Source: Laspinema olomoucense D3b (GTDB lineage: Bacteria > Cyanobacteriota > Cyanobacteriia > Cyanobacteriales > Laspinemataceae). From it: a DNA stretch of 60,559 nucleotides. A program made the position numbers and the translations under genes. This document shows, piece by piece, positions 47,502 through 60,418 of the stretch. The notes below the pieces were generated by a model. That model did no database searches and was not told where the DNA came from. It saw nothing but the letters and a program-made list of their open reading frames with translations. The DNA lies in contig NZ_JAMXFA010000041.1 of NCBI RefSeq assembly GCF_025370785.1, forward strand, positions 1-60,559. The letters run 5' to 3'. Every line of letters starts with the position of its first letter. The stretch's first letter is position 1.

Positions 47502-47873
47502 ATGCCTAGAATTAAACCGCCCTCCTCAATGCCGCCGAAAATTAGTCCCACTCATCGCCAAAACTGCGAGGCGGGGGAACAAGTTGAACTGTATAAAATG
47601 ACGACAAAGCGACAGCGGATCCAGCATGAGCTTCAGATGATTAAACAGCGCATGGAGTTGTTGAATTCTCAGTTAAGTCTATTGGATAGTCAAATTGAGG
47701 CGAAGCAAAAGGCGATGCAGGACTTGCAGCCATCTTCTGGAAAGGGTGTAGGGGCTATTCCGGGGGAAATTAAGCCCATTCAGGACCATTCAATCCCGTC
47801 TCGAACTCCCCTTTCTGAACCGATTAATCGGGGGAATTCTAACCCGTTTAAAACATTTCATCTGGAATATTAA
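47502..47873 (+). CDS. GvpV-like coiled-coil protein (putative gas vesicle accessory)
   Basis: A 123-residue basic protein with a disordered N-terminus, a central coiled coil (LYKMTTKRQRIQHELQMIKQRMELLNSQLSLLDSQIEA, about residues 30-72) and a Pro/Ser-rich tail. Cyanobacterial GvpV proteins, as I recall them, share this layout of a basic leader, an LYKL-type start and a heptad helix. The gene converges on gvpG with about 70 bases between and a terminator in that gap. Assignment rests on context and shape, so it is tentative. Confidence 0.5.
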   Translation: MPRIKPPSSMPPKISPTHRQNCEAGEQVELYKMTTKRQRIQHELQMIKQRMELLNSQLSLLDSQIEAKQKAMQDLQPSSGKGVGAIPGEIKPIQDHSIPSRTPLSEPINRGNSNPFKTFHLEY

Positions 47874-47887
47874 ACTCGGGTTGAATT

Positions 47888-47923
47888 GGGGGTGGAATCT
47901 CCATCCCCCTTGTTTTATTTTTA
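47888..47923 (+). terminator. Rho-independent terminator
   Basis: GGGGGTGGA pairs with TCCATCCCCC (one bulged base) and is followed by TTGTTTTATTTTT. It ends the gvpV-like transcript. On the opposite strand it would also stand just after gvpG. Confidence 0.8.
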
Positions 47924-58167: not shown

Positions 58168-58540
58168 TTCCGATGGAGATGGGATTTGTATAGGTGAGGG
58201 GTTAGCAGGCGGCAGAACCGCTGATTTCGCGTATCACGGCTTCAGGCATGATATAAAAGTGCTTATACAAAAGCTTTCATCCTCCTCTGTTTCAAAAAAT
58301 GCTAAGATTTAATCTAAACGACTCTACACCTTGGGATATAGGGATCCAGGCCCTCTAAAATCAGCCTTTAGAGGAAGACTCTTTAAGGGATAAATCGTTA
58401 GATTTAGAGTAATCTCCCTTAAACAATTCCGGGGCTTTCTCCATATCTTAGGGTAGAGCCAAGTGCGGTGAATCACTGCATTTTTGACCCCAGTTAATCG
58501 GGTCGAGAACGGGACTGTTAATTATTAGGGAGAGCTATTG
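58168..58540. other. 373-base intergenic region
   Basis: Between the ArsA-like and AAA genes. CCTCTAAA/TTTAGAGG (58352-58374) forms an 8-bp stem. No clear promoter. The AAA gene has AGGGAGAG upstream of its ATG. The gap is long enough for its own promoter. Confidence 0.45.
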
Positions 58541-60418
58541 ATGAACGAATTATTTAAAGGGTTTGAGCAGTTATTAGAACTCGCGAAAGCCTTGGAAGAG
58601 AAAATAGAAGCTGGAGAACTCAACGCCGATATGCAGTTCCGTACTCGTCCGATAAGTAACATACCCCGTACTGGCGCAATTCCCCGGACTGGGAATGTAG
58701 GAGTCTCGACGGGTGGGGTTTCTGTAGATGCCAGCCCTTTCCGCCAACCCTCTCCTCCTCGTTCCACGGGTCCTCGTTCCACGGGTGGTAGGTCAAATTT
58801 TACATCTCCGACTCCCGGGGTATCGAAGTCCCAAAAATCGGGTTCTTCGATGAAAGATATCGGCGGACTTCGCGAGGTTTTAGCCGAACTTAAAGAACTG
58901 ATTGGGATGCCTTTAAAACGTCCTGATTTATTAGAAAAAATTGGATTAGAACCGACCCGAGGGGTGTTGTTAGTCGGACCTCCGGGGACGGGAAAGACCC
59001 TGACAGCTCGGGCTTTAGCTTCAGAATTAGGGGTTAACTATATTGATTTAGTTGGGCCAGAAGTTATTAGCAAATATTACGGGGAAGCAGAGCAGAAACT
59101 GCGGGCAATTTTTGACCAAGCGGTGAACAGTGCGCCTTGTATTATTTTTATTGATGAAATTGACAGTTTAGCTCCCGATCGCTCTCAGGTAGAAGGGGAA
59201 GTAGAAAAACGCCTGGTAGCTCAATTGTTGGGCTTAATGGATGGATTTGCTCAAACTCAAGGGGTGATTGTCCTGGCTGCCACAAATCGACCGGATGCCC
59301 TTGATCCAGCCTTACGTCGTCCGGGACGCTTCGATCGCGAAGTGCTCTTCCGAGTCCCCGACTGCGCCGGACGCTTGGAAATATTAGAAATTCTCACCGG
59401 CCCCATGCCCTTAGAGGAAACAGTGCAGTTAGGCCAAATTGCCGAATTAGCCACGGGATTTGTGGGGGCAGATTTGAAAGCGGTTTGTCAAAAAGCCGCC
59501 TATACTGCCCTGCGTCGTCAAGTGCCTTCCATTGAGGCGGAGATTCCCGAGACGATGACAGTTCAACAGGGGGATTTTTTAGCAGCCCTCAAAGCCGTGA
59601 AACCAGCAGTTTTGCGGTCCGTGGAAGTGCAATCTCCTCATGTTTCATGGGATGAAATTGGCGGATTGGAGAGCATTAAACAGACCCTGCAAGAAGCAGT
59701 AGAAGGGGCGCTGATTAATCGGGAATTATATTTACAAACCAAAGCGCGATCGCCCAAGGGAATTCTGCTCTGGGGTCCTCCAGGAACCGGCAAAACCCTA
59801 TTAGCCAAAGCCGTCGCTTCCCAAGCAAAAGCCAATTTTATTTGTATCAATGGACCGGAATTACTCAGTAAGTGGGTAGGGGCCAGTGAACAAGCGGTTC
59901 GGGAATTGTTTATCAAAGCCCGCCAAGCCTCGCCCTGTGTGGTGTTTATTGATGAAATCGATACCTTAGCCCCTGCCAGAGGTCAACATACTGGGGATTC
60001 CGGCGTCAGCGATCGCGTGGTTGGACAATTACTCGTGGAACTAGATGGGTTAGCCACCGGGGCCAATATTCTGGTCATTGGGGCGACAAATCGGCCCGAG
60101 GCAATGGATTCGGCCCTCCTGCGGGCGGGACGCTTCGACTTGCAACTCAAGGTAGATTTACCTGATGTAGAGAGTCGCTTAGGAATTTTGCAAGTCCACA
60201 ATCAGGAACGTCCCTTATCCGAGGTGGATTTGTCCCACTGGGCAACGGTTACCGAGGGTTGGAATGGAGCAGATTTGGCCTTACTAGGCGATCGCGCCGC
60301 AGTCGAAGCGATCCGCCGCTATCGGGGGCTTGGCATGAGCGATCCTACCCAAATCCAGATTACCACGGAAGATTTTGCCTACGCTTACGATGCCTTGAAC
60401 CAACAGCGATCGGCTTAG
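58541..60418 (+). CDS. Cdc48/VCP-like double AAA+ ATPase in the gas vesicle cluster
   Basis: From the ATG at 58541 (preceded by an in-frame TTG) the protein has 625 residues. Residues 1-105 are a short N-terminal part: a helix [27 protein letters not shown], then a disordered Ser/Pro/Arg region with a repeat ([12 protein letters not shown]). Two AAA domains follow, with GPPGTGKT at about 146 and 412, Walker [16 protein letters not shown] and [15 protein letters not shown], and second-region-of-homology blocks [22 protein letters not shown] and [19 protein letters not shown]. Such hexamers unfold or remodel proteins. The N-terminal helix resembles that of GvpH-type gas vesicle proteins, suggesting docking to vesicles. 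No substrate-binding Cdc48 N domain is seen. This reading is inference; the ATPase family is firm. Confidence 0.93.

Follow-up and report, generated by a model that had tools for sequence, protein, structure and literature searches.

The gas-vesicle shell is a hydrophobic polymer able to collapse, and much about how cells assemble it, control its quality and dispose of it is still to be worked out. In cyanobacteria the gas-vesicle (gvp) cluster comprises nine classic genes (gvpA, C, N, J, K, F, G, V and W), and Escherichia coli given Anabaena gvpABC/NJKFG/VW, a set with neither ArsA nor Cdc48, becomes buoyant and forms irregular vesicles (PMC7204071). An ArsA-type ATPase has been connected to gas vesicles since 2010: Castillo and Saier described two-domain ArsA homologues of gas-vesicle operons, averaging 637 amino acids, as ‘cluster 4’ (PMC2963123), and a co-evolving cluster of eight gas-vesicle proteins, ArsA and two uncharacterized proteins was reported later (PMC5464585), so far as the available portions of both papers go. 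Here we analyse a 60,559-nucleotide stretch of Laspinema olomoucense D3b (the window; contig NZ_JAMXFA010000041.1), in which gvpA, gvpC and gvpN are followed, as an initial annotation described, by genes for a four-LamG protein, a double ArsA/Get3-like ATPase (ArsA2) and a Cdc48-type double-AAA ATPase (gvp-Cdc48), all on one strand with no other gene between. The open reading frames (ORFs) and domains are as that annotation gave them. The window is a rearranged copy of the cyanobacterial gas-vesicle locus whose last two genes are a gas-vesicle ATPase pair, and the new element of this locus is the Cdc48-type ATPase as a gas-vesicle partner.

A literature search whose coverage took in few subscription papers, so that priority for the Cdc48 link is not certain, found, among the papers listed, none naming Cdc48 as a gas-vesicle gene and none joining ‘Get3’ with ‘gas vesicle’. 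Of the papers holding both Cdc48 and gas-vesicle terms, PMC6107691 concerns a protein bound non-specifically to a nickel matrix, and the others, by title and opening of the abstract, appear to make no such link. The main texts of two gas-vesicle cluster-mining papers (PMC10344784 and PMC12081810) do not contain the words ATPase, ArsA or Cdc48, and the available portion of PMC2963123 does not mention Cdc48 pairing for its cluster 4 homologues.

Two ATPases accompany gas-vesicle genes across cyanobacteria

We searched 386 cyanobacterial genomes for GvpN (E ≤ 1e-40), GvpK (E ≤ 1e-6) and the window’s Cdc48 (E ≤ 1e-110) and ArsA2 (E ≤ 1e-60). GvpN was present in 56 genomes, leaving 330 that were gvpN-negative. 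The core-gene benchmark GvpK occurred in 56 of 56 gvpN-positive and 0 of 330 gvpN-negative genomes, the identity of the two genome sets being compared by eye. Cdc48 was found in 55 of 56 gvpN-positive and 0 of 330 gvpN-negative genomes, and ArsA2 in 51 of 56 and 0 of 330, a gap that holds for ArsA2 at E ≤ 1e-60, the only limit searched. Both ATPases therefore co-occur with gvp genes as core genes do, and this near-core behaviour suggests that the building, checking or dismantling of gas vesicles probably involves a Cdc48-type machine that has gone unnoticed. The initial annotation had treated the LamG, ArsA2 and Cdc48 genes together as a gvp module. For the two ATPases this stood, their close homologues in the cyanobacterial sample occurring only in gvpN genomes and not mostly away from gvp genes; the LamG gene drops out, with a full-length relative in 0 of 55 other gvpN-positive genomes.

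The separation is wide for Cdc48. Its weakest full-length orthologue scored 755.7 bits (a partial piece, at a contig end in genome G050, scored 391.8), and a laxer search (E ≤ 1e-10) of 20 of the 330 gvpN-negative genomes plus G099 returned nothing above 196.9 bits, a match limited to one AAA domain; the 20 gvp-negative cyanobacteria yielded no double-AAA Cdc48. Four genera (g7, g10, g11 and g13) hold both gvpN-positive and gvpN-negative members, and among the genomes listed by name Cdc48 tracks gvpN in all of them except in G099 (g10). Two Cdc48 matches occur in G185, and ArsA2 is split into two pieces in G215 and G229. Locus L085 of G099 is a natural knock-out for Cdc48 in which ArsA2 is kept.

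Linkage and gene order

gvpN and Cdc48 lie within 10 kb on one contig in 37 of the 56 gvpN-positive genomes, gvpN and ArsA2 in 36, and Cdc48 and ArsA2 in 37. Two of these last 37, G011 and G215, keep the pair together at a long distance from gvpN or on a different contig. Contig breaks make all three counts lower bounds. In 27 genomes, the window’s among them, ArsA2 is followed at no more than 374 bases by Cdc48 in the same orientation, and both share the strand of gvpN and lie within ~8.1 kb of it. We mapped stretches from 26 gvp-positive genomes, not every stretch carrying gvp genes; the common order is A-C-N-J-K-F-G-V-W-ArsA2-Cdc48, and it is seen, with small labelling gaps and with W recognized by sequence, in G312, G022, G262 and G068. 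ArsA2 and Cdc48 belong to the usual layout, contrary to the initial annotation, which placed all three downstream genes outside the standard cyanobacterial set, and their linkage reaches well beyond one genome and into other phyla.

Nine genomes carry Cdc48 0.45–2.9 Mb from gvpN in contig coordinates, and this retention without linkage argues for function and not hitch-hiking. Pairwise distances of Cdc48 and ArsA2 also correlate (Mantel r = 0.82, 0 of 2,000 permutations as high, 19 genomes), which fits with joint function, and those of GvpN and Cdc48 correlate moderately (r = 0.42, 0 of 2,000, 21 genomes), kinship being uncorrected in both cases.

A full gvp–ArsA2–Cdc48 cluster sits at 2848–13584 of the 35.8-kb Nostoc sphaeroides plasmid p4 (NZ_CP031945.1, locus L125), so the trait might move between strains. 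G129 keeps its gvp genes in three places hundreds of kb apart on one contig (L091, L092 and L093), holding A-N-J-K, then F-G-V with Cdc48, then ArsA2.

Cdc48 in gas-vesicle clusters of other phyla

Among gvpN plasmids of bacteria, Cdc48 is also present on four of six (Nostoc, two Methylocella and Methylosinus), its adjacency to gvp genes being taken from gene reading and, for the second Methylocella, from position. Methylocella and Methylosinus, both methylotrophic Alphaproteobacteria, carry Cdc48 within their gvp clusters. We also examined 198 genomes in the phylum of G386, a Desulfarculales metagenome-assembled genome (MAG), taken here as Desulfobacterota. GvpN occurred in 12 of them. Ten of the 12 also had Cdc48 (E ≤ 1e-80), as did 1 of 19 gvpN-negative genomes tested out of 185; ArsA2 (E ≤ 1e-40) was present in 7 of 12, two as short pieces, and 0 of 19. 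In 7 of the 12, Cdc48 lies inside the gvp cluster on the gvpN contig, and in two more of the 12 (L159 and L160) it has Hsp20 and a gvp-type regulator gene as neighbours. G386 itself, left out of both the gvpN-positive and gvpN-negative counts, is gvpN-negative, yet one of its contigs bears gvpA, L, J and G together with Cdc48 and ArsA2; the genome has two gvp-bearing stretches (L156 and L157), and a separate Cdc48 gene occurs in each.

Cdc48 closes the gvp cluster, on the opposite strand, in one Nitrospirota MAG (L155) and one Methanoperedens MAG (L146). On the Halobacterium plasmid NC_002608, gvpN and Cdc48 are ~27 kb apart, which we did not count as linkage, and no gvp gene lies near the Sinorhizobium Cdc48. 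Outside cyanobacteria, the gvp-cluster Cdc48 (Methylocella, Methylosinus and Desulfobacterota) is mostly beside Hsp20. Two archaeal Cdc48–Hsp20 pairs, in Methanoperedens (L147) and Methanosarcina (L154), have no gvp gene in the stretch examined, hinting at an older partnership between small heat-shock proteins (sHsps) and Cdc48.

We built a 49-row tree from the AAA region by a quick method without bootstrap, archaeal L149, L152 and L154 having been dropped by a motif filter; in it the 25 cyanobacterial Cdc48 form one group (Shimodaira–Hasegawa-like approximate likelihood ratio test, SH-aLRT, 100). A second branch (94) gathers seven of the nine non-gvp Cdc48 and leaves out the two long-branched ones.

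Sequence features of the ATPase pair

Judged on its sequence, gvp-Cdc48 is an unfoldase with two AAA rings, whose pore loops (KYYG and KWVG) are aromatic in both. Besides these loops, the two rings (D1 and D2), their lids, P-loops and arginine-finger regions are shared with Cdc48/p97/VAT; both rings have DEID-type Walker B motifs, and the nearest solved structures by sequence are of VCP-like ATPase (5vc7, 5g4g and 5g4f). Its score against the CDC48 model TIGR01243 is 647.3 bits, below the cut-off of 802.65, and covers only profile positions 176–675 of 733; the match to Cdc48/VAT spans residues 103–593 only, and residues 1–104 have no Pfam match. Unlike Cdc48/p97/VAT, gvp-Cdc48 has a short conserved helix and a variable linker in place of the N-domain. 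CDC48_N and CDC48_2 were found in five of five gvp-linked Cdc48 of other groups tested and in none of three cyanobacterial ones tested. HbYX is a proteasome-docking motif; by eye, the C-terminal tails of gvp-Cdc48 have no common end motif.

ArsA2 passed TIGR00345, the GET3/ArsA/TRC40 subfamily model (336 bits, cut-off 135), and failed TIGR04291, the arsenical-pump model (182.1 bits, equivalog cut-off 650). Its P-loops and DxAPxGH switches are invariant in both halves across 21 aligned sequences. The arsenical pump ArsA has metal-site cysteines in both halves, and eukaryotic Get3 has a zinc CxxC. ArsA2 lacks both arrangements, its only cysteines being the three at positions 35, 227 and 255, all in the first half; on this and the TIGR04291 score we rejected the arsenic pump as a candidate identity. 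From these motifs ArsA2 belongs to the Get3/ArsA-type ATPases, in tandem form and lacking arsenic-pump features; it shares TIGR00345, P-loops and DxAPxGH with Get3/TRC40 and differs as a tandem protein without CxxC. The nearest solved structure by sequence is ARSA1 (5zme), followed by Get3 entries. In size (633 versus 637 amino acids), two-domain build, gvp linkage and cyanobacterial membership, ArsA2 resembles cluster 4 as described in the available part of PMC2963123.

An N-terminal segment resembling GvpH

The first ~50 residues of gvp-Cdc48 are conserved in 25 cyanobacterial orthologues (a helix, a GE turn, then IPR..IPR) and give way to a variable linker. GvpH/Hsp20 of non-cyanobacterial gvp clusters, whose gene is often beside Cdc48 there, has an N-terminal helix motif like that of gvp-Cdc48, a similar helix lying near the start of the Hsp20/GvpH encoded beside Cdc48 in Desulfobacterota. 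Unlike GvpH/Hsp20, cyanobacterial gvp-Cdc48 shows no alpha-crystallin domain, its Pfam matches being of AAA or P-loop type.

We ran a profile of the Cdc48 N-segment against 6,492 ORFs from the loci and the window, 6,465 of them non-Cdc48. Hsp20-domain ORFs took ranks 1–5, 10, 13, 14, 15 and lower of the 6,465. The top ten held six of them, versus 0–3 for 60 column-permuted profiles, and the best Hsp20 score was 11.3 bits versus 6.6 for permuted profiles. In the reverse direction we used a profile of 13 GvpH segments, chosen after the N-segment hits were known; the 27 cyanobacterial Cdc48 ORFs, which represent 25 genes with two counted double, all came within the first 48 of 6,461. The GvpH sequences are related to one another, so these ranks are not independent. 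With hhalign, the Cdc48 N-segment gave 92% over 28 columns against the 13-member GvpH type, 84% against both types together and 1% against the Methanothrix type.

This likeness could instead be a convergence of short amphipathic helices without common origin, an alternative whose chances we put only somewhat below even. The resemblance spans ~28 residues of helix with single E-values of 0.07 and up, the hhalign result for Methanothrix-type GvpH is near nil, and the profile matched 17 of 31 Hsp20-domain ORFs, leaving 14 unmatched, all of which count against a shared docking segment. Convergence fits less well with the forward ranks, which the permuted profiles did not reach, with the reverse ranks or with the absence of the motif from the Hsp20 adjoining Cdc48 in the gvp-free stretches L147 and L154.

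No Hsp20-domain ORF was found with a profile of seven Desulfobacterota Hsp20 in cyanobacterial loci L085–L124, a search of these 40 loci, some without gvp genes, and not of whole genomes; in agreement, the accessible text of PMC2963123 reports hsp20 missing from the cyanobacterial gvp cluster. Four small ORFs in other gvp loci (L037:3193, minus strand; L065:4649, L035:4709 and L130:16495, plus strand) match the GvpH N-segment profile, three of the matches having come via the following strand, and none of the four has a Pfam or NCBIfam family over cut-off. Perhaps they represent a widespread gas-vesicle docking segment.

Proposed role of the pair and alternatives

ArsA2 and Cdc48 are associated with gas vesicles in the genomes surveyed; how they act we infer from their families and context. 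Hand-over from sHsps to AAA+ enzymes and p97-type extraction are established in other systems. In Desulfobacterota and their relatives, a small heat-shock protein of the GvpH type, with its gene next to that of Cdc48, would mark or coat exposed hydrophobic gas-vesicle subunits, which Cdc48 would then pull apart. In cyanobacteria the GvpH docking segment may have become the N-terminus of Cdc48, replacing its N-domain. Hsp20 with Cdc48 elsewhere and a GvpH-like segment on the cyanobacterial enzyme itself suggest that the unfoldase would be recruited directly to Gvp clients. ArsA2 would act as holder for GvpA/GvpJ-type subunits, whether freed or newly made, much as Get3 does for tail-anchored proteins, and would pass them back to the GvpN-dependent growing vesicle or on to proteases; vesicle growth would gain from clearance of failed shells.

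Taken as a pair, an unfoldase aimed at gas-vesicle proteins with a Get3-like holdase, acting in quality control and remodelling, is the account we lean towards, by a narrow measure. It is compatible with the delivery, assembly, repair or dismantling role first suggested for these genes. The likeliest job is quality control and remodelling, that is, clearing collapsed or failed shells and shaping nuclei, and not the basic chemistry of shell formation. More tentatively, and with chances nearer a third than a half, gvp-Cdc48 may be a dedicated p97/Cdc48-type gas-vesicle unfoldase that in cyanobacteria is a core protein, its N-domain swapped for the GvpH docking segment so that an sHsp–unfoldase relay became one enzyme, which would dismantle collapsed or faulty vesicles and, with ArsA2, recycle their hydrophobic subunits.

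Several observations weigh against this account. G099, a single-contig genome, is missing Cdc48 despite having gvpA, N, J, K, F, G, W and ArsA2. ArsA2 had no match at E ≤ 1e-60 in G193, G282 and G346 (one family) or in G334, though Cdc48 is present in all four, and none in G050, a fragmentary genome that is 64% complete. The co-occurrence counts ignore species relatedness, and GvpN and ArsA2 distances correlate weakly (r = 0.23, 106 of 2,000 permutations as high, 17 genomes). Beyond cyanobacteria, the Spartinivicinus and Octadecabacter gvp plasmids have no Cdc48 match and no annotated ArsA in the stretch examined, Cdc48 has no match at E ≤ 1e-80 in two of the 12 gvpN-positive Desulfobacterota (G520 and G581), and G431 carries it on contigs other than that of gvpN, with no gvp gene in the one neighbourhood examined (L162). 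That the N-domain was lost in cyanobacteria, rather than never present, is also something we infer. Finally, the vesicles formed in E. coli without ArsA or Cdc48 indicate that neither is needed for the shell in that host.

p97/VAT-type enzymes mostly disassemble complexes, which tells against a reading in which the pair acts in assembly, with ArsA2 delivering GvpA/GvpJ to the nucleus and Cdc48 and GvpN together driving insertion or shape maturation. This reading draws on the position of both genes in line with assembly genes, on the core-like retention of Cdc48 and on the irregular vesicles reported for E. coli lacking the pair in the accessible text of PMC7204071; that heterologous vesicles form at all, and that G099 has a nearly full cluster without Cdc48, make it unlikely, though far from negligible. 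The two ATPases might also serve some other trait of planktonic or hormogonium-forming cyanobacteria and travel with gvp genes through shared need, because a correlation of presence and absence cannot separate shared ecology from shared function and Cdc48 is far from gvpN in nine genomes. We consider this improbable given the linkage to gvpN in 37 of 56 genomes and on a 35.8-kb plasmid, and its recurrence in Desulfobacterota, methylotrophs, a Nitrospirota MAG and an archaeon, which are unlikely to share such a lifestyle. A reading of ArsA2 as an ATPase for arsenic resistance and of Cdc48 as a housekeeping gene, both chance neighbours as LamG appears to be, accords with the annotations ‘ArsA family ATPase’ and ‘AAA family ATPase’ and with a Nodularia genome paper that places under arsenate an ArsA gene whose number adjoins those of the gvp genes (PMC3610870), but is scarcely credible against the failed arsenical-pump model, the first-half-only cysteines, the lack of double-AAA Cdc48 in the 20 gvp-negative cyanobacteria and the GvpN, Cdc48 and ArsA2 profiles, which contradict it unless they are a sampling effect.

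If gvp-Cdc48 acts as an unfoldase on gas-vesicle proteins, it gives the study of shell assembly, quality control and disposal a concrete enzyme to test. Expression kits of the nine classic cyanobacterial gvp genes are predicted to lack two native factors, and the lack of ArsA2 and Cdc48 might explain irregular vesicles in a foreign host. Exchange of an N-domain for a heat-shock docking segment, if true, would be an unusual route to retarget an unfoldase.

Layout of the locus and neighbouring features

The window is an entire contig of a 7.02-Mb genome. Its membership in the gas-vesicle clusters follows from gvpA, N, J, K, F and G models passed in Pfam and NCBIfam (GvpJ via PF00741 and position). 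Compared with the cyanobacterial cluster, the window has eight of the nine genes, C tentatively, with J-K-F-G on the opposite strand between the gvpV homologue and gvpA, LamG inserted, and the GvpW homologue on a different contig of the same genome (C44:272261–272932). ArsA2 and Cdc48 follow the gvp genes here, both being left out of the gene set given in the accessible text of PMC7204071.

Table 1 Features of the gas-vesicle locus in the window
Feature	Coordinates	Strand	Basis or remark
gvpV homologue	47502..47873	+	29–35% identity to V-position ORFs; one annotated ‘gas vesicle protein’ (NZ_CP031945.1)
gvpG	47944..48342	-	PF05120
gvpF	48266..49009	-	NF052351 over cut-off
gvpK	49042..49521	-	PF05121
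gvpJ	49555..49962	-	PF00741 and matches at J position in relatives
gvpA, shell protein	51147..51365	+	PF00741 and PRK09371 over cut-off
gvpC-like ORF, tentative	51550..51918	+	Position; 33–35% identity to two gvpA-adjoining ORFs in L096 (blastp)
gvpN, AAA ATPase	51949..52887	+	TIGR02640, 387.6 bits (cut-off 266.8)
Four-LamG protein	53111..56191	+	Four Laminin_G_3 stretches; inserted, not a conserved module part
ArsA2, double ArsA/Get3-like ATPase, 633 aa	56266..58167	+	Two ArsA_ATPase stretches; TIGR00345
gvp-Cdc48, double-AAA ATPase, 625 aa	58541..60418	+	Two AAA and two AAA_lid_3 stretches; no CDC48 N-domain
gvp-Cdc48 N-terminal segment	58541..58690	+	Helix, GE turn, IPR..IPR; resembles GvpH/Hsp20 N-termini

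The gvpC-like ORF has no Pfam family over cut-off. From gvpA to Cdc48, successive gaps are 184, 30, 223, 74 and 370 bases, and no further plausible gene was seen in them. The Cdc48 ORF was first called at 58538–60418 on the plus strand; the ATG at 58541 is the more likely start because it agrees with the start of most orthologues. Promoter and terminator scans of 49900–60559 gave 14 sites versus 13.9 in shuffles and 13 versus 13.9, no excess in either, so operon limits are not readable from them.

LamG as a gvp gene was ruled out by the count given above. Among 76 genomes tested, the window’s own LamG was the only full-length one, with none in the other 75 (55 gvpN-positive and 20 gvpN-negative), and distant LamG stretches (E ≤ 1e-20) occurred in nine other genomes. 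In G213 (L163), LamG-rich ORFs lie four ORFs from Cdc48, which we take as chance. The contig ends 141 bases past the Cdc48 gene, so that further downstream content is unreadable, and directly after Cdc48, at 60423–60552, it holds a tandem array of ~14 copies of a 9-base unit, GAGATAGGG.

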